Origin: an uncultured Opitutaceae bacterium
GTDB taxonomy: Bacteria; Verrucomicrobiota; Verrucomicrobiia; Opitutales; Opitutaceae
Assembly: GCA_903929355.1 (NCBI GenBank)
Contig: CAIYUN010000017.1
Coordinates: 1 to 64,000, forward strand
Direction of reading: 5' to 3'
DNA length: 64,000 bases
Each line of letters opens with the position of its first letter. The stretch's first letter is position 1. This document shows, in pieces, positions 4,586-50,521 of this stretch. The position numbers and the translations under genes were made by a program. Under the pieces are notes generated by a model. It made no database searches. It saw only the letters and a list, made by a program, of their open reading frames with translations, and was not told the origin of the DNA.

Positions 4586-4598
4586 GGTTAACGCTTAT
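4586..4598. repeat. Single copy of the GGTTAACGCTTAT intergenic word
   Basis: This 13-mer is identical to one found inside the inverted-pair elements at 16722-16734 and 28358-28370. Here it overlaps the stop codon of the BatA-like gene, so the TAA at 4597-4595 is part of the repeat. It suggests that a fragment of the repeat family landed at the gene end. Confidence 0.6.
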
Positions 4599-6712
4599 TT
4601 GGCCCCCGCCGGGGCGGCCGCGCGGCGGGCGAGGGTGTAGGAGAAGAGGCTCTCGCAGGCCAGCAGCACGGCGGCGGCCGCGAGGAGCCAGCGCCAGAGT
4701 TTCTGCCGGCCCTCGAGGACGGTCGCCGTCTGCGTCCCGGGGGAGGGTTTGGGCGGCGTCAGGGCGGCGGCGGCGGCGGAGTCGGCCGGGTTGGCGTGGA
4801 GCGGCACGCCCAGCTTCTCAAAGTCGTCCAGCGGGATCGGTTCAACCCGGCTTTCGGATGCGGGCACCTGCACGGCGACCAGGCGCGTCGTGCCGCCCTC
4901 GACCAGCTCATAGACGCCGGGTGACATGGGTGGAGCGTTGACGAAGGTGGCATTGATGTCCAGTGCCGCGCGCCATTGCGCTGGGCCGGAGACGAGGCGG
5001 CCGGTGTCCCCGATCTCAGCGACAGCGGCATGGGACGCGCCCCCCAGCGAGCGCTCGACCAGCGACTCGAGCCAGGGGACGAATTTCGTGGAGATCACCC
5101 ACTGCCCGGCCGCGTTGGACCAGTCGCCGCCCCAGACGATGAGGCGGCCCTTCCCGATCGGGACCTCGAGGACGGCGGGAGTGTTGTCGTCGAAGCGCGC
5201 GACCACGGCGGCCTTCGTGGCGGCGGGCAGCGCCACCGGCTGTGGCTTCCAAAAATGGATGGTGGCAAAGTTGCTGTAGTGCGGGTCCGCGAACAGCGCG
5301 AAGAGCGGGTGCTGGAAATCAATGGTGCCGAAGAGCGCGTCGGGCCGCGCGGTGGTGGCGGGGGCCCAGCCGGTCTCGCCGGCCAGCGCGGCCGCCGTGT
5401 CCACCATCGCCGGGTCATTGAGCAGCACGAGCGCAAACCCGCCAGCCGTCAGACGGTCGCGCAGGGCTTTCGCGTCGGCGGCAGCGAGCGGCTCGGCCAC
5501 GACGTCAAACTGGCTGGCGGGTGTCTGGCCGGCCCCGGCGGCGGGGGCGTCCGTGGCGCCGCGAACGGTCACCACCGGGTCTTTCCAGCCGGCGACCGCG
5601 CGCTCGAGATAAAACCGGGCGTGCTTCAGGTCGTCGCCGGAGTGGGGACCGTGATAGACGAGCGCGACACTGCGCGGCGTCGGGCGGATCAGCCAGAGTT
5701 TGTTGTCGTAGGTTTCGGTGTCGCCGGTCAGCTCCACTCGCAGGGGGCCGTTGGCGGCGTCGGCGGGCACCGGTACGAGCGCGACCTGTTCATCTCCGGC
5801 GGGCACGGTGAGGTCCTGCCCGGGACCAAGGATGTTCCCGGTGCGGTCGTCATAAAGCTGCAGATGGAGGTCCCGCGCGGGGTTGGTGATGCCCTGGGTG
5901 ACACTCACCCGGGCGACCGCCGCCGGGGGCGGGGCGCCGGCGGTCGTCGCGGCGGCGGTGTCGGCGGCCCAGCCGAGCCAGTGGAGGCCGGCGTCTCCGG
6001 TGTGGTCGGGGTCGAGCTGGGTGAGGACCACTTCGCAGTTTTTCGGCCAGGCCAGGCCCGCCAGCCCGGCGATGCGCGTGCCGGCGGTGAAGTCGGAGAC
6101 CACCACGAGCTTTTTGTGCGCGGTGCTGTCGGTCGCCTCGGCCATCTGCTCCCATTGGGCGACAGCCGTCTCGATGGCGGCGTCCAAATGCATGGGGCCC
6201 CAGCCGGGCGTGACACTGGCGAGCACGTTTTTGACGAGGCCTGCGCGCCCGTCGGGTGGGGTCTGGGCCCAGCGTTCGCGGCTGATGAGTTCGGTGACTC
6301 CGGCGGAGGCGGAGAAGAGGACGAACTGGTCCCCGTCCTTCAGGGTGGCGGCGAGGTCGGCGATCTTCTGCCGCGCGGCGGGCCAGAGCCCGGCGCGCTG
6401 CATCGAGGCGCTCACGTTGACGATGGCGACGACGCTCTGGGGCGCGCCGTTCACGGGCGCCAGGGGCAGGTCGCGCCGGAGAAACGGCCGCGCGAAGCCC
6501 GCGGCGAGGACCGCGACGATGAGGCACCGGAGCAGTAGAAGCAGCGGGTGCTGGATGCGGCTGCGCTTGCTGAGGCGCGGAGGCGACTCCTTGAGGAATC
6601 GCATCGCGCTGAACGAAAACCGGTCGCGCGTCACCCGGCGGATCAGGTGCGCGATGACCGGACCGGCGATGAGCGCAAAGCCCGCGAGAAACCAGGGGGA
6701 GAGGAAGTTCAT
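4595..6712 (-). CDS. BatA-like membrane protein with von Willebrand A domain
   Basis: 705 residues. The N-terminus is a typical BatA leader: a first membrane segment at residues 4-25, a basic stretch, and a second hydrophobic segment around 55-75. A vWA-like domain follows from about residue 92. Its metal-binding DxSxS motif reads N-V-S-A-S, so the first Asp is Asn99. A C-terminal membrane anchor lies about 675-695. It sits between the 44-residue membrane protein (4-base ATGA overlap) and the DUF4175 gene, in a MoxR/DUF58 operon. Related Bat proteins act with MoxR ATPases in envelope or aerotolerance functions; the exact role here is not known. The Asp-to-Asn change may weaken metal binding. 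Confidence 0.87.
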   Translation of the reverse strand: MNFLSPWFLAGFALIAGPVIAHLIRRVTRDRFSFSAMRFLKESPPRLSKRSRIQHPLLLLLRCLIVAVLAAGFARPFLRRDLPLAPVNGAPQSVVAIVNVSASMQRAGLWPAARQKIADLAATLKDGDQFVLFSASAGVTELISRERWAQTPPDGRAGLVKNVLASVTPGWGPMHLDAAIETAVAQWEQMAEATDSTAHKKLVVVSDFTAGTRIAGLAGLAWPKNCEVVLTQLDPDHTGDAGLHWLGWAADTAAATTAGAPPPAAVARVSVTQGITNPARDLHLQLYDDRTGNILGPGQDLTVPAGDEQVALVPVPADAANGPLRVELTGDTETYDNKLWLIRPTPRSVALVYHGPHSGDDLKHARFYLERAVAGWKDPVVTVRGATDAPAAGAGQTPASQFDVVAEPLAAADAKALRDRLTAGGFALVLLNDPAMVDTAAALAGETGWAPATTARPDALFGTIDFQHPLFALFADPHYSNFATIHFWKPQPVALPAATKAAVVARFDDNTPAVLEVPIGKGRLIVWGGDWSNAAGQWVISTKFVPWLESLVERSLGGASHAAVAEIGDTGRLVSGPAQWRAALDINATFVNAPPMSPGVYELVEGGTTRLVAVQVPASESRVEPIPLDDFEKLGVPLHANPADSAAAAALTPPKPSPGTQTATVLEGRQKLWRWLLAAAAVLLACESLFSYTLARRAAAPAGAK

Positions 6713-16691: not shown

Positions 16692-17021
16692 GGAGGGCGG
16701 GAAAATTTCTTATTGGTTATTGGTTAACGCTTATGTGGCCAAGTTCCGAACCCCGGCTTCGGATAAGATCGCAGGAGTCGGACGACGATACCCGATCCAC
16801 CATCTGCTGCGAGCGCAATACTATGGCCCCCTCACCGCCGACGAGAGCTTCACCACTCGACGGCATACAAACGCAGACTCCCGGTGTTCCTGCTGCTTCC
16901 GAAATAACCCAATAAGCGATAGCCAATAAGCAATAAGCCATCCAGCCGCCCGCTTGGCAGGCAGCTGGTCCGCACAATACGGTTGCCCACACCCGCCCCC
17001 CCGGCTTCGCTGACCGGCTGC
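16692..17021. other. 330-base divergent gap holding an inverted repeat pair
   Basis: This gap lies between the divergent 210-residue gene and proS, so it must contain promoters for both. Most of it is taken by the CAATAAG-type inverted pair (16705-16939). I see no open frame or known RNA in the 167-base spacer between the arms. Confidence 0.6.
16705..16939. repeat. Inverted pair of CAATAAG/TTATTGG arrays around a 167-base spacer
   Basis: The left arm (16705-16738) contains CTTATTGG, TTATTGG and GGTTAACGCTTAT. The right arm (16906-16939) carries the inverted words CCAATAAG, GATAGCC, CAATAAG and CAATAAGC. The arms are imperfectly complementary. A close relative with better arms lies at 28341-28591. 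The spacers of the two copies do not look alike. Confidence 0.75.
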
Positions 17022-19586: not shown

Positions 19587-19658
19587 AACCACTAATGCAC
19601 ACTAATCTGCACTAATCCGATCCTTCGAATTAGTGTCCATCAGTGTCCATTAGTGGTT
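19587..19658. repeat. Near-perfect 30-bp inverted repeat of CACTAAT words
   Basis: Bases 19587-19616 and 19629-19658 are inverted copies with 25 of 30 positions matching and a 12-base loop. Each arm starts AACCACTAATG and repeats the word ACACTAAT. The whole is an intergenic hairpin upstream of the outer-membrane barrel gene. A related half-site, ATTCGTGGTTTAAA, lies about 40 bases downstream. Confidence 0.85.
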
Positions 19659-19731
19659 CAATTCTGGCGGCTCGAAAAGTCATGCTTCCAATTCCTGTAA
19701 TTCGTGGTTTAAACCCCCGTTTTCCTTCCCC

Positions 19732-20388: not shown

Positions 20389-20710
20389 ACCAGCCGCAGG
20401 ATGAGGACCGGAGCGCCTGAGTTACAGGCACTGATTTGATGGGGAAATCAGGAAATCAAGAACGGAGGAGGACGCGGAGCGTACGGAGGGCAACCAGATC
20501 CGTCTCAGTCGTGTAACCGTGTCCTACGACTGTGTCTTCCGACTTGTCCTCCATAGCTTCAGCGACGGAGGAAGCCTTGGCGGAGGAGCATCCGTGGTTA
20601 AATCCGATTCCGCCATTAGTGTTCATCAGTGTCCATCCGTGGTTAAAAACTCCGGTCTCCGTGTCCCAACTACGATTCCGTCACTTCCGTGTCTTCCATG
20701 GGGAGCCTGT
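20389..20710. repeat. 322-base intergenic stretch packed with word repeats
   Basis: No gene is visible. Bases 20431-20451 hold a CTGATTT/AAATCAG hairpin. Bases 20461-20495 contain CGGAG words. Bases 20589-20650 contain two copies of TCCGTGGTTAAA around ATTAGTGTTCATCAGTGTCC words. More TTCCGT and CTTCCGTG words run to 20700. These are relatives of the arrays at 23798-24054. Confidence 0.7.
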
Positions 20711-23691: not shown

Positions 23692-24103
23692 GGCAGAAAT
23701 ATAACTGAAGGTCGGGCCAATGCAAGCGGCCGGAGCCTGGTTCAGGTGGAACGCGACGCCCCCGGCGCGCTCGCCCCGACCGAACCGAGCAACCGGAGTT
23801 AACCACGGATTACACGGATGAACACGGATCTATTCAGAAGCCATGAAGCCATGAACCGGAGTTTTAACACGCAGGACACGGGGCGCACGGAGGGAACAAT
23901 CCGAGGACACAGAAGGGGAGGGGGACGGAGGGAGGACCAAGGCAGAAAGTTTGGTCCAGCCTGAGTTCCTGAGTTCCAGATTCGAATTTAATTTGGAAAT
24001 CAGGATATCAGGAACGGATGGGGCAGAGTTTTAACCACGGATGACACGGATCCACAGGGGTAAGGCAGGCTCCTGCCTCGGCAGAGGAATGGTCGGCCCT
24101 CGC
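23692..24103. repeat. 412-base gap with several word arrays
   Basis: No gene is visible. Bases 23798-23829 hold three CACGGAT-type words after GTTAACC. Bases 23833-23857 repeat GAAGCCAT. Bases 23860-23897 hold CACGG-type words. Bases 23965-24014 form an inverted pair (GTTCCTGAGTTCC against GGAAATCAGG...GGAAC). Bases 24028-24054 repeat CACGGAT after TTTTAACC. A small GGCAG/CTGCC hairpin lies near 24063-24077. All of this is upstream of the DUF1800 gene and past the end of alr. Confidence 0.75.
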
Positions 24104-26324: not shown

Positions 26325-27656
26325 GTGAACCTCGAAATCAAAGACATCTCACCCACCCGCAAGAGCCTGGTCGTCACCCTCGATCCCGCCGAGGTGGACT
26401 CCGAGCACCAAGTGGTGGTGGCCGAGTTTTCCCGGATGGCCCGGCTGCCCGGCTTCCGGCCCGGCAAGGCCCCGGCGGCCATGGTCGCGAAGCGTTTCGC
26501 CAAGGAAATCGCCGAGGAGTTCAAGCAGAAGGTACTGGCCAAGGCCTACCGCGAGGGCAACGCCCAGGCCAAGCTCGATGTCGTGCACATCACCAACGCC
26601 GAGGAGGGCGTGATCGCGCCGGGTGCGGCTGCCACCATCACGATCACGGTGGACATCCGCCCGGAGTTCAAGCTGCCGGAGCTGGCGGGCCTTATCACCG
26701 AAGTGCTCCCGGCCGAGGCCACGGAGGCCGAGGTGGACGCGATGATTAACGCCCTCCGGGCCGAGAAAGCCGATTTCAAGGTGGTAACCCGCGCGTCCGC
26801 CAAGGGCGACTATGTAAAGCTCGCCTTCGAAGGCCGGGTGGGGGACCGGCCGATCTTGGAGATCGCGCCCGATAACCGGATTTACGGCCAAGTCCCGCAG
26901 ACGTGGGAGGAAGTCGAGGGGGCGAACGAAGGCGTGATCCCCGGGCTGGGCAAGCAGATCGGCGGCCTTGCGGCCGGCGACAAGCGCGAGGTGACCATCA
27001 CGTTTCCGGTCGAGTTTCCGGCGGTGCCCGCACTGGCCGGGCTGGTCGCGACCTATGCGGTCGAGGTGCAGGAGGTGCGCGAACGCGCGCTGCCCCCGCT
27101 CGACGAGGCGTTTCTCCAGGCCCACCAGGCCGACAGCCTCGACACGCTCAAAACCAACGTCCGCAACCAGCTCAAGCTCCGTCGGGCGCAGGAAAACCAC
27201 CGGGCGCAGCGCAGCCAGGTGCTGCGGCAGCTGGCCGAGCGCGCGGGGGAGTTCCCGGTGCCGGACAGCCTCGTCGAGGAGGAGACGCAGGGCGTGCTCC
27301 GCAATTTCATCGAGCAGAACATGCGGCGCGGCGTGCCGGCCGACCAATTTGAGAAGGACAAGAAGGAGATCTACGAAGGGGCGCGCAAGACCGCCGCCAG
27401 CCAGGTGCGGAACCGTTTCCTCCTCACCTCGGTGGCCACACAGGAAAAGCTCACTGTGACTGAGGATGACATGAACACTTTTCTCTACCAGGAGGCGGTC
27501 GCGGCGGGGGTGCGCCCGGAGAAGCTGGCGAAGGATTTGTCCAAGGACCGCGGCCGCGGGCAGGCGGCGCAGTTGTCCATCCTTTTCGACAAGGCCCTTG
27601 ATTTGTTGGTGTCCAAGGCTACGGTGCAGGAAGTCGCGCCCAAGCCCCCGGCCTGA
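26325..27656 (+). CDS. tig: Trigger factor
   Basis: 443 residues starting with GTG at 26325. The ribosome-binding N-terminal domain has the signature [10 protein letters not shown] (near residues 41-50). The PPIase (FKBP-like) domain covers about 155-245, and the helical C-terminal chaperone domain the rest. Trigger factor binds nascent chains at the ribosome exit. clpP follows 40 bases later, the common tig-clpP order, though clpX is not next. Confidence 0.96.
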
Positions 27657-27696
27657 GCGCCCGTTCCGCCCTCCCAACCACGCCCTCCCTCCGCCC

Positions 27697-28317
27697 ATGA
27701 GCTACTACATGCCCACCGTTTATGAGAACACCGGCCGCGGTGAGAAGAGCTGGGATGTGTTCAGCCGCCTGCTCAAGGACCGGATCGTGTTCCTCGGCTC
27801 GCCGATCGACGACATGGTGGCCAACCTCGTGATCGCGCAGATGCTCTACCTCCAGATGGAGGATGCGAAAAAGGACATCCACATCTACATCAATTCGCCC
27901 GGTGGCATTGTGACCGGTGGCATGGCGATCTACGACACAATGAACTTTCTCCAGTGCGACATCGTCACCTACTGCATCGGCCAGGCGGCCAGCATGGCGA
28001 CGGTGCTGCTGGCGGCGGGCACCAAGGGCAAGCGGTTCGCGCTGCCCAACTGCCGCGTGATGCTGCACCAGCCCAGCGGCGGCGCGGGCGGCCAGGCCTC
28101 CGACATCGCCATCGCCGCGCGGGAGATCCTGCGCTGGCGCCAGACGCTCAACGGCGCCATCTCCCGCCATACGGGCAAGACCCCCGAGCAGGTCGAGAAG
28201 GATTCTGACCGCGACTACTACATGAGCGCGCACGAGGCCAAGGATTACGGACTGGTGGACCACGTGGTCGAGTCCACCCGCGAGGCGCAGAAGTCGCTCG
28301 CCGTGGTGGCGGCGTGA
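27697..28317 (+). CDS. clpP: ATP-dependent Clp protease proteolytic subunit
   Basis: 206 residues from the ATG at 27697. The catalytic triad is Ser99 (GQAASMA), His124 (MLHQPSGG) and Asp173 (DRDYYMSA). The length and spacing match standard ClpP. It degrades proteins in the cytoplasm with a Clp ATPase. The usual clpX is not downstream; a strong hairpin follows the stop at once, so transcription should end here. Confidence 0.97.
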
Positions 28318-28340: not shown

Positions 28341-28591
28341 ATTTCTTATTGGTGATTGGTTAACGCTTATTGGGGTATTGGTCTGAGCGGTAGCCAAGTG
28401 GCATGCCCGTGGAACAGCGTGAGGCAGCTGGATTGAGCGATTTTCCTCAAAACTCCATTGACCCCAAATGGCTCGGGTCGCAGCTTGGGGGGACCCCTCG
28501 GAATTTTCGCCCAGAATCCCGTAAATTGATTTACCGGCTGGATGGCTCCGTAAATTCCCCAATAAGCATTAACCAATAGCCAATAAGCAAT
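28341..28591. repeat. Inverted pair of TTATTGG arrays around a 181-base spacer
   Basis: The left arm 28341-28375 and right arm 28557-28591 are inverted copies of each other, matching at about 30 of 35 positions. They contain CTTATTGG, ATTGGTTAA and GCTTATTGGGG. The 181-base spacer has a small GTAAAT/ATTTAC hairpin (28521-28534) but no open frame I trust. The arms look like terminal inverted repeats, yet no transposase and no target duplication are visible. It fills nearly all the gap between clpP and the carbonic anhydrase gene. Confidence 0.8.
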
Positions 28592-28609: not shown

Positions 28610-29179
28610 ATGGACAACACCCCTCCCGTCCAGCAGCTCCTGAACCGCCATCTCGGCACGGCCCCGTCCACCGCGCGGGCGATGTTCGTCGCGCCCAACG
28701 CGACGGTGGTCGGGGATGTGACCCTGGGCGCGCGTTCCAGCGTATTTTATGGCGCGGTGCTGCGTGGCGACATCGCCCGCATCATCGTCGGCGAGGGCAG
28801 CAACATCCAGGACAAGGCGGTGGTCCATCTGGCGGACGGGATCGACGCGGTGATCGGCGCGTGGTGCACCATCGGCCACTCAGCGATCATCCACGCCTGC
28901 ACCATCGGTGACGAGTGCCTGGTCGGGATGGGCGCGACCGTGCTCGACGGCGCCAACATCGGGGCGCGCAGCATCGTGGGCGCCAACGCGCTCGTGCCCC
29001 AGCGCTTCACCTGCCCGCCAGGCTCGATGGTCTATGGCTCGCCAGCCAAAGTCGTCCGCCCACTCACGGAGGCCGAGCAGCGCGGTCTGAAACCCTGGGC
29101 GGAGAAGTATATCGAGGTGGCCAAGGCCCACGCGGCCCTCGCCCGCTCCACCCAGCCGCCGTTTGCGATCGCGAAATAG
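28610..29179 (+). CDS. Gamma carbonic anhydrase family protein
   Basis: 189 residues forming a left-handed beta-helix of hexapeptide repeats, with a C-terminal helix. The three metal-ligand His of the family are seen in VVHLADG and in IGHSAIIHACTIG. Members are zinc or iron carbonic anhydrases or related acyltransferase-like proteins (YrdA/PaaY group). The exact activity is not provable from sequence. It follows clpP but is separated by a terminator and a repeat element. Confidence 0.92.
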   Translation: MDNTPPVQQLLNRHLGTAPSTARAMFVAPNATVVGDVTLGARSSVFYGAVLRGDIARIIVGEGSNIQDKAVVHLADGIDAVIGAWCTIGHSAIIHACTIGDECLVGMGATVLDGANIGARSIVGANALVPQRFTCPPGSMVYGSPAKVVRPLTEAEQRGLKPWAEKYIEVAKAHAALARSTQPPFAIAK

Positions 29180-40005: not shown

Positions 40006-40059
40006 GGTAGGGACGCCACTCCGTGGCGTCCGCGGACGGCTCGGAGAGCCGCCCCTACC
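40006..40059. repeat. REP-like element with two nested hairpins
   Basis: The element starts GGTAGGGACGCC and ends GCCGCCCCTACC. Inside are the stems GGACGCCAC/TGGCGTCC and CGGCTC/GAGCCG. The ends are also complementary, so the whole could fold as a cloverleaf-like form. It lies past the end of the YncE-like gene, 95 bases before the response regulator. Confidence 0.7.
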
Positions 40060-48265: not shown

Positions 48266-49450
48266 TCATGGAAATCGCGGCAAGGGTGTGACGTCCGGGA
48301 TCGCCTTGGGCGCGAAGGTGACGGGGGTTGGCGGGCTGGGCACCTTTGGTCGCAACGCCACATGGGGGAAATTGATCAATTGAAAGGGCCGGACTTGGAG
48401 GCGGAATTCCATGACCTGGTCCACCTTCAACTCGTCGAAAACATAAGTGCCATGGGCAAAGGCACCGGTGTCGGCTTCGTCGGTCCGCTTGGTCGGCAGA
48501 CACTCCTTCCCGTTCAAATCCAAAGCAATCACCCGCACCTGCCAGTTTGCCGGCATCCTGGGGCCTTGCGTGTTCACGTTATGAATCACGGTAATTCTGG
48601 CACCGGTGGCGCGGCTGGGCTCGCTCGGCGAATACATGGATACACTCCACCATTGGCTACCGTGCACTAGGCTACCACTGATCCTTCCATCGGCCAGTCT
48701 CGTAAAACCTGGCAAGGGTTGGGCCGGTTTGGGATCGGTCCCCTTGGAAAAAATAAGGGAGGATCCTGAACCGTGATTCTCCATCAAGAGCTTGCCGATC
48801 GTCTCCCACTCGCCGCTGGCGATCCCCATCGTGAGGTCCACGAAGGTTTGCGGGGTGTCAAATAGGCTGTGGACGGACAAGATCCCGGCATTGGCAAAAA
48901 AACAAAGGTCGTCCGGAATAGGCTTGCCGTCGGGGGTGAGTCCGAAAGTACCGGGCAATTCGCCCTCTAAGTCCACGCCCGAAAGCATGCAGGTGGCGCC
49001 ATTGGGGAGATTCGACGTGTGAAAGTAGAACACATAGCCGATGCTGTCACTGACTGCCCGGCCCATGGAAATCAATCGCAGATTGGCCTCATCGGCCGGG
49101 GGATAAACCACCTCGGACGATCCGGAAAAGGAGTCCCCATTGGTGGGGAATGAAATCTTTCCTGCCGCGATGTAAGTCTCCGCACTGGCAGACGACCCCA
49201 TAACCTCCCGGTCCTTTGGGAACAAAAACTTGACCGAGGGCGAGCCATCGGGAGTCCACCAAGGTTGCGCGTCGGCCCAATCGAAGTTGATGCCCAGCAG
49301 CTCAAACTTGGGTGCGGGCCTGGCAGCAATGGCACTTACGGGCAGGGCAACAGTGGCGTCCGACTCGGCACCGCGCAGTGCCAGAGTGGGCATTACGACG
49401 AGCGCGAGAGAGGTGCGGGCGAAACAACGAGTGGGGTGGACGGGTATCAT
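48266..49450 (-). CDS. Exported paralog A of tandem pair
   Basis: 394 residues with a signal peptide ending about residue 27. Shared with the gene upstream are the blocks GEWETIGKL, SVSMYSP, ITVIHNVNT and FRLQVRPFQL..FPHVAL. The last block is like a region found with BlaR1/M56-type sensors in Verrucomicrobia and Planctomycetes, from memory. No peptidase motif is visible. A metal-free extracellular sensing or binding role is only a guess. Confidence 0.75.
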   Translation of the reverse strand: MIPVHPTRCFARTSLALVVMPTLALRGAESDATVALPVSAIAARPAPKFELLGINFDWADAQPWWTPDGSPSVKFLFPKDREVMGSSASAETYIAAGKISFPTNGDSFSGSSEVVYPPADEANLRLISMGRAVSDSIGYVFYFHTSNLPNGATCMLSGVDLEGELPGTFGLTPDGKPIPDDLCFFANAGILSVHSLFDTPQTFVDLTMGIASGEWETIGKLLMENHGSGSSLIFSKGTDPKPAQPLPGFTRLADGRISGSLVHGSQWWSVSMYSPSEPSRATGARITVIHNVNTQGPRMPANWQVRVIALDLNGKECLPTKRTDEADTGAFAHGTYVFDELKVDQVMEFRLQVRPFQLINFPHVALRPKVPSPPTPVTFAPKAIPDVTPLPRFP

Positions 49451-49525: not shown

Positions 49526-50521
49526 TTAACGCGCGACGGTGACCGAAGCCGGCGTGCCGGATGCCTTGGGCTTCAGCGCCACATGGGGAAATTCGGTCAA
49601 TTGAAAGGGCCGGACCTGGAGACGAAACTCCTTGGTTTGAGAAAACATCAACCCGCCGAAAACATAGGTGGCATGGACAAAGGCGCTGGTCTCCGTGTCC
49701 TCGGTGATCTCCTCCGGAAGAATTTCCTGACCCGCTTGGTCCACCGCGATCACGCGCACCGCCCAATTCTTGGGGGATTTGTTCCAGCTTCCGGTGTTCA
49801 CATTGTGCACAACGGTAATTTTGGCCTTTCCCGTGAGATGGGGTTCGGTGGGTGAATCGCCCGGCACAAACATGGATACACTCCAGATTTTCGTGCCGTG
49901 CGCCAGATTGCCGCTGACCCTGCCTTCGCCGACTTCCATCCCACCGGATAACTTGTAGTCGGTGGAGATCAGATTGGAGTAGTTGCCATGATTTGTCACC
50001 GACAGCTTCCCAATCGTCTCCCATTCACCGGTCGCGATCCCCACTGTCAGGTCGGCGAACTCGGTGCCATAGGACGCATCGGCCGCAAAAGCCATGGTGT
50101 CCGGGGCGGGCTTTCGATCGGATGTCGTCGCAAAGGGTTCAAGCTCACCTGAGTCCAGGCCGGAAAGCATCCAAGAGGTCCCGGCGGGGACGTTCGGCGC
50201 GCGAAAGTAGAGTTTAAAATTAGCGCTATCGGTTGTAAAACGGTCATTCAAGAAACCAAACTCCCCAACATCATACTTGTGGGCGGGCAAACCATCCGCA
50301 GTCCACCAGTCGCCGGAAGGAAACGCGTTGATGGCGAGCAATTCAATCGCGCCTTTGGGCAATGTCCCGGGCATGGCGACAGCCGGCTTGGCGGCGGCGG
50401 GACTCGTGGAGGTGGGGTCGATGGCCGCGTCGACGTTGAGCGAGAGCAACGCGACAAGGAACAGCAGGCGGACAAACCCGCATTGGGCAACGGCGGTGCG
50501 GGTACTTGTATTTGTAGTCAT
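49526..50521 (-). CDS. Exported paralog B of tandem pair
   Basis: 331 residues with a hydrophobic leader (about 14-32). It shares DLTVGIATGEWETIGKL, GRVSGNLAHG and the terminal LQVRPFQL block with paralog A; the DNA near the ends is also similar, so the pair arose by duplication. It is the first gene of a possible four-gene unit with paralog A, the esterase and the 237-residue protein. Upstream at 50559-50571 lies a TTCTC/GAGAA palindrome. Confidence 0.75.
   Translation of the reverse strand: MTTNTSTRTAVAQCGFVRLLFLVALLSLNVDAAIDPTSTSPAAAKPAVAMPGTLPKGAIELLAINAFPSGDWWTADGLPAHKYDVGEFGFLNDRFTTDSANFKLYFRAPNVPAGTSWMLSGLDSGELEPFATTSDRKPAPDTMAFAADASYGTEFADLTVGIATGEWETIGKLSVTNHGNYSNLISTDYKLSGGMEVGEGRVSGNLAHGTKIWSVSMFVPGDSPTEPHLTGKAKITVVHNVNTGSWNKSPKNWAVRVIAVDQAGQEILPEEITEDTETSAFVHATYVFGGLMFSQTKEFRLQVRPFQLTEFPHVALKPKASGTPASVTVAR

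Follow-up and report, generated by a model that had tools for sequence, protein, structure and literature searches.

The window, the whole 64,000-nucleotide stretch of uncultured Opitutaceae DNA that was analysed, carries a palindromic element at 28341–28591 between clpP and a hexapeptide-repeat gene, and a second element of the same kind at 16705–16941. The features are as follows.

4586–4603, + strand: partial single-arm remnant, GGTTAACGCTTATTTGG (exact word; arm model R1, 14.2 bits, E 0.002)
16705–16739, + strand: left arm of the second, gene-less element (R1, 44.8 bits)
16740–16906, no strand: core of the second element, unlike that of 28341–28591 (all-against-all core comparison)
16907–16941, − strand: right arm of the second, gene-less element (R1, 49.1 bits)
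27598–28317, + strand: clpP, upstream neighbour of 28341–28591 (PF00574, 5e-81)
28341–28375, + strand: left arm of the first element, five tandem heptamers of TTATTGG/TTAACGC type (R1, 45.8 bits)
28376–28556, no strand: core of the first element, where the complete copy has its IVP gene; no related sequence found in its own genome or in five relatives
28557–28591, − strand: right arm of the first element, five tandem heptamers (R1, 47.0 bits)
28610–29179, + strand: hexapeptide-repeat (gamma-carbonic-anhydrase-like) gene, downstream neighbour (PF00132, 5.5e-13)

Elements in the window

The arms of the first element (28341–28375 and 28557–28591) match at 31 of 35 positions, close to the roughly 30 of 35 given by an earlier reading of the sequence only. 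A repeat search extends the inverted pair to 45 nt at 84% complementarity, around a core of 181 nt. Each window arm is exactly five tandem 7-mers of TTATTGG type. The word GGTTAACGCTTAT occurs five times in the window at up to two mismatches, against 0.26 expected. A second pair with the same word family and an unrelated core had been placed at 16705–16939; family and core hold, and the end is corrected to 16941.

The cores of the two elements do not align to each other. No further copy of core 28376–28556 was found in its own genome or in five relatives, and on that ground it was rejected as a second repeat family. An Rfam search of the window found no known RNA family. The predicted RNA hairpin of 28341–28591 is more stable than 200 of 200 shuffles (z −3.5), and that of 16705–16939 also beats all shuffles (z −4.5).

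A genome-wide arm family

The 3.8-Mb draft genome (G000; 91 contigs, 96% complete) contains GGTTAACGCTTAT 35 times at up to one mismatch, against two occurrences of the reversed word. Model R1 detects 79 arms. The 46-column arm alignment from which it was built has a near-invariant A at columns 2, 9, 16, 23, and 30, that is, every seventh position. The 35-nt arm is made of five heptamers (TTATTGG/TTATCGC/TTAACGC type) and is followed by an inner stretch. Pairing of arms yields 35 convergent elements of 92–456 bp and eight solos, about 43 copies in all and nearly all without a gene. No divergent pairs were seen among the 79 arms. G+C content is 36% in arms, 61% in cores, and 67% in flanks.

All-against-all comparison of cores returned a single pair with a clear common stretch (28 bp, 93%). 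The sequence-only reading had held that conserved outer arms with differing interiors are unlike a classical MITE, and had named alignable cores, or arms that fail to pair in other copies, as the outcomes that would speak against it. Genome-wide alignment bears the reading out: the cores cannot be aligned, and arms form pairs at 35 of 43 places. Its statement that no transposase is visible is also correct for the element. Short length, lack of autonomy, and inverted ends are shared with MITEs. MITEs differ in having an interior common to their copies and a transposase origin; here the cores are unrelated, no transposase-bearing relative was found, and the gene-bearing copy encodes an IVP.

The two arms of an element are not equivalent. 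Arms of one element differ more than arms of different elements (15.7 versus 13.7 ± 0.4 differences per 46 columns), in a set chosen by the arm model rather than by the word, which avoids selection bias. Within-element differences also point the same way: their first component accounts for 20.8%, against 14.3 ± 1.1% under random signs. Because paired arms differ more and do so in a consistent orientation, the arms fall into two types and the element is directional. Of 25 elements in co-directional gaps, 19 are oriented along transcription and six the opposite way (two-sided binomial p 0.015). The sign of the direction was set by the gene-bearing copy, each element was scored on a component computed without that element, and gene directions were taken from codon usage rather than annotation. 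Five further elements lie in convergent gaps and five in divergent gaps.

The gene-bearing copy

IVP/S23 proteins are poorly understood four-helix bundles, common in many phyla and long known from 23S rRNA IVSs. The only complete TTATTGG copy in the genome, C40:45326–45781, lies outside the window and has the order arm-gene-arm. Its 364-bp core encodes a 127-aa four-helix-bundle protein of PF05635/TIGR02436 ("23S rRNA IVP", S23). The protein scores 82.4 bits against TIGR02436 (2.4e-23; cut-off 24) and 54.7 bits against PF05635 (cut-off 33.8). Among its sequence relatives are 2gsc and 2rld, both five-chain structures. The gene starts and stops within the inner ends of its arms, with the ATG in the left one (TTGGGCCATGTCAGAA) and the TAA in the right one; gene-less copies have edges similar to these junctions (GGGCCATTTCC... 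and CTCCGAAAATAACCC). The word cassette, used in the sequence-only reading, thus fits the complete element and does not fit the window copies, which have no gene. The five-heptamer arms, the genome-wide family, its one gene-bearing member, and the direction of the element go beyond that reading.

A sister genus has a conserved counterpart of the C40 core, 72% alike across 353 aligned bases and with a score of 272 (shuffles, −5 ± 10). Gene-bearing TTATTGG copies are also present in G002 and in G028, the latter with one internal stop; the same gene lies inside the same arms in the genome itself, one congener, and one sister genus. In G004, the copy is internally deleted and its IVP truncated. 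A search of 57 genomes for IVPs that share 70% or more identity with the C40 protein found them in G000, G002, and G028 only, plus the truncated gene of G004. The same four, and no others of the 57, have at least nine arm-model matches; G001 has two matches and G005 one. Because the four are closely related, the co-occurrence of IVP and arms counts as one or a few independent events. Arms in relatives are probably undercounted, since the arm model was trained on G000.

No IVP remnants were detectable in the gene-less cores (window core z 1.2), so the loss of a gene from each copy is a presumed step. For the window copies, cores as decayed IVP genes were rejected, as no signal rose above shuffles. 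Three other cores (C21_11809, C22_34703, and C75_21721) reach z of about 3, a score that is a maximum over more comparisons than its null.

IVP genes between tandem-repeat arms

Convergent 7-mer arms enclose all five canonical PF05635 genes of the genome, and the unit is different at each: TCAGAGG, AGTGCGG, TTATTGG, ATTTACG, and AAGTAAC. One more match, below threshold and within a 487-aa frame, is not between such arms. Together with 29 loci from genomes of the same family, these five make a set of 34 IVP loci, of which 29 score at or above the 95th percentile of control windows. A second set of 80 loci was drawn from Cyanobacteria, Acidobacteriota, Bacteroidota, Planctomycetota, Nitrospirota, Chloroflexota, and others; it consists of best matches and represents one IVP subfamily. 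Shifted windows of the same loci served as controls, and 64 of the 80 loci reach the control 95th percentile and 59 the 99th. A period-7 match of at least 0.5 is found in 50% of this set and in 2.8% of control windows. In Bacteroidota the units are often longer, 8- to 11-mers. The same gene-between-heptamer-arms design is present around IVP genes in many bacterial phyla.

Clear 7-mers flank 15 of the 20 best matches to the C40 protein in relatives; this group shares members with the earlier sets, and three of its loci are TTATTGG gene copies. At loci with periodic arms, the arms lie close to the ORF: a median of 13 nt separates one arm from a start codon, and a median of 3 nt separates the stop codon from the other. 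No Rfam families were found within about 2 kb of 20 sampled named IVP loci, so no 23S rRNA lies near them.

Unrelated units are found even next to proteins that share about 50% identity with the C40 protein. Across 59 loci, protein similarity correlates with arm-word similarity (Mantel r 0.41; reached in 0 of 2000 permutations), a correlation that alone is no proof of binding because gene and arms descend together. Several of the statistics ignore phylogenetic relatedness.

The number of units is most often five. Five is the modal number of heptamers per arm in two locus sets (29 of 70 and 32 of 58 arms). In an alignment-free count, at least four heptamers occur in 50% of IVP flanks and 2.1% of control segments, and 57 flanks stop at five heptamers, followed by five flanks at six; the five-unit mode depends on the threshold, and at 6 of 7 matches the mode among arrays is four. 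An IVP-family protein of Xanthomonas is described as a toroidal homopentamer (PMC4990558). Because the modal number of units is five and relatives of the protein have five chains, one heptamer per subunit would be a natural reading.

Shared sites and a synteny junction

Arm-model matches identified 21 elements in relatives, and 17 of these are at sites also filled in G000. The family is therefore an old one, passed on mainly by inheritance, and the 21 gave no evidence of ongoing movement. Arms stay near the consensus and cores are unalignable, except where the core is the gene. Orthologous arms are hardly closer to each other than paralogous arms; with these distances nearly equal, arm homogenisation and descent were inseparable.

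Gaps of the ATP operon (G000:C65 and relatives) are empty (3–56 bp) in some relatives and filled in others. In filled gaps there are hairpins built alike from unrelated units, among them palindromes of AGTAGCG, ACAGAGACAC, and CACGAAATAC types. Because they are empty in some relatives and hold other hairpins elsewhere, these gaps have been used repeatedly. The sequence-only reading had pointed to sister strains as the place to look for empty sites; empty gaps do exist, in relatives diverged by 15–25% in DNA, and no strain-level pair of filled and empty sites was among them. No target duplication was seen, and the empty gaps are too diverged to judge one.

In relatives, clpP is followed by pyrE, and in G028 an element lies between these two genes. 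An arm of the same family stands directly before the hexapeptide-repeat gene in relatives, but the gene upstream is a different one. The window element marks a synteny junction between the clpP side and the hexapeptide-repeat-gene side, and relatives have same-family arms at both ancestral places. This suggests a rearrangement through two element copies, which would explain the junction.

Interpretation

The element at 28341–28591 is probably a gene-less, non-autonomous copy of a palindromic element that carries an IVP gene between arms of five 7-mers. Its derivation from an IVS-like element, here in gene gaps rather than in 23S rRNA, is well supported. The 23S rRNA IVSs of Coxiella and Leptospira likewise have terminal inverted repeats, a variable interior, and in some cases a PF05635-type ORF. 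The window element shares with them the long stem formed by terminal inverted repeats. It differs in location, between clpP and the hexapeptide-repeat gene rather than inside a 23S rRNA gene, and the elements here occur genome-wide in gaps between protein genes in about 40 gene-less copies. The Coxiella IVS encodes S23p, has terminal inverted repeats cut by RNase III, and has tandem heptamers (GACAGAT) upstream of S23p; its expression in E. coli caused no growth defect (PMC4990558).

The most likely reading is a selfish or formerly selfish palindrome whose IVP would bind the five-unit arms in RNA. Gene-less copies most likely depend, or once depended, on IVP supplied in trans. A mechanism can be proposed in three steps. 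A homopentameric IVP ring would recognise the tandem units, one per subunit. The arms would act in the transcript, where their long imperfect hairpin could be cut by RNase III, as in 23S rRNA IVSs. Gene-less copies would arise by gene loss and then spread, or be retained, with IVP acting in trans. Taken jointly, five-unit recognition, silencing by RNase III, and gene loss with IVP in trans form a tentative scheme, possible rather than probable. Insertion into operon gaps would be nearly silent or harmless under it, because the transcript hairpin would be cut by RNase III.

Spread by reverse transcription was also considered. No reverse transcriptase (RVT_1) was found in the 96% complete draft; spread driven by a host reverse transcriptase was rejected for this reason, and there is no known enzyme for the spread. 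IVPs belong to a fold family homologous with Avd/bAvd of diversity-generating retroelements, and three of 18 IVPs match the bAvd model; the IVP–Avd relation has been discussed (PMC10053308). The absence of RVT_1 from this genome sets the family apart from those retroelements. Intergenic 7-mers are also known as the TAACTGA heptamers of Beggiatoaceae, but these are direct rather than convergent (PMC4679880), and the paper does not mention IVP.

The best-surviving alternative is host regulation, in which the IVP would act as a regulator that binds nucleic acid. Its regulon would then be the gene-less hairpins, with the arms serving as operators or UTR sites. This reading would account for the many sites common to two genera (17 of 21), for arms near consensus beside unalignable cores, and for the bias toward the transcribed direction. 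It is nevertheless unlikely: close relatives have nothing, or unrelated hairpins of similar kind, in the corresponding ATP-operon gaps, the adjoining genes are by appearance functionally unrelated, and the C40-type IVP is absent from most relatives.

Mobilisation of a REPIN/BIME-like element by a Y1 (RAYT) transposase would likewise produce REP-like inverted arms with a variable spacer. The outline is alike, as REPINs are intergenic inverted doublets with a weakly conserved spacer (PMC3116915) and combine a non-autonomous family with a low-copy protein gene, and the genome has four Y1_Tnp genes. None of the four has TTATTGG arms nearby or is flanked by matching REPs; by eye, other repeats bracket them, e.g., GTAGGGACGCC... 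and GGGGTCAGGTTTTAA. The TTATTGG arms are 7-periodic tandem arrays with the gene between them, and that gene encodes a four-helix-bundle IVP, not a Y1 HUH transposase. This origin is highly improbable. Plain mRNA hairpins (terminators or stabilisers) kept solely for their stems are hardly credible, in spite of the strong predicted hairpins in operon gaps, because the two arms of one element are less alike than arms of different elements, the opposite of pairing-only selection, because sequence and not complementarity alone is conserved, and because one copy contains a gene.

The reading as a selfish palindrome can be extended to IVP genes at large, which would form a widespread class of selfish palindromes without transposase or reverse transcriptase, with a pentamer that reads five units at its own ends. 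In such a class, protein and unit would change together, units would be lineage-specific, and gene-less derivatives would multiply in gaps. This extension as a whole falls a little short of an even chance. If it is true, the IVSs of 23S rRNA are no more than the most familiar part of a class of IVP elements. The gene-specific arrays of about five 7-mers on both sides provide a concrete candidate ligand for the IVP pentamer. Such arrays would also account for intergenic palindromes of a kind that could pass for noise, and would make the old question of what IVSs are and how they spread one for binding and processing assays.

To our knowledge, IVS-like elements have been known until now from 23S rRNA genes. 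In the open-access literature on the IVP family, neither gene-less families nor IVP genes flanked by heptamer arms were found reported outside rRNA, and an exact-string literature search with six repeat units returned nothing relevant.

Other repeats

Elsewhere in the genome, the 350-bp core of the element at G000:C53:20913–21354 contains other repeat families (CGCAAAG-type 9-mers and GTGTTCATCCGTGG type) as nested elements. Two Y1 transposase genes, at G000:C65:70396 and G000:C24:1413, lie between GGGGTCAGGTTTTAA / GGGGTCATGTCTCAAAG inverted ends, which are unlike the GTAG type. A palindrome in the window at 40006–40059 (GGTAGGGACGCC...) resembles the GTAG REPs that flank the Y1 gene at G000:C39:12506 and belongs to a separate RAYT-REP family.

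Three further repeats lie in the window. An almost coreless intergenic hairpin at 19587–19660 has convergent tandem units of about 10 nt (CACTAATNNN), the same style in unrelated sequence. A short palindromic repeat with CCTGAGTT-type units is present in two copies that are 75% alike (20408–20471 and 23960–24023). Paired direct repeats at 48621–48844 and 49857–50059, about 1.2 kb apart and with 72–76% identity, look like tandemly duplicated genes.
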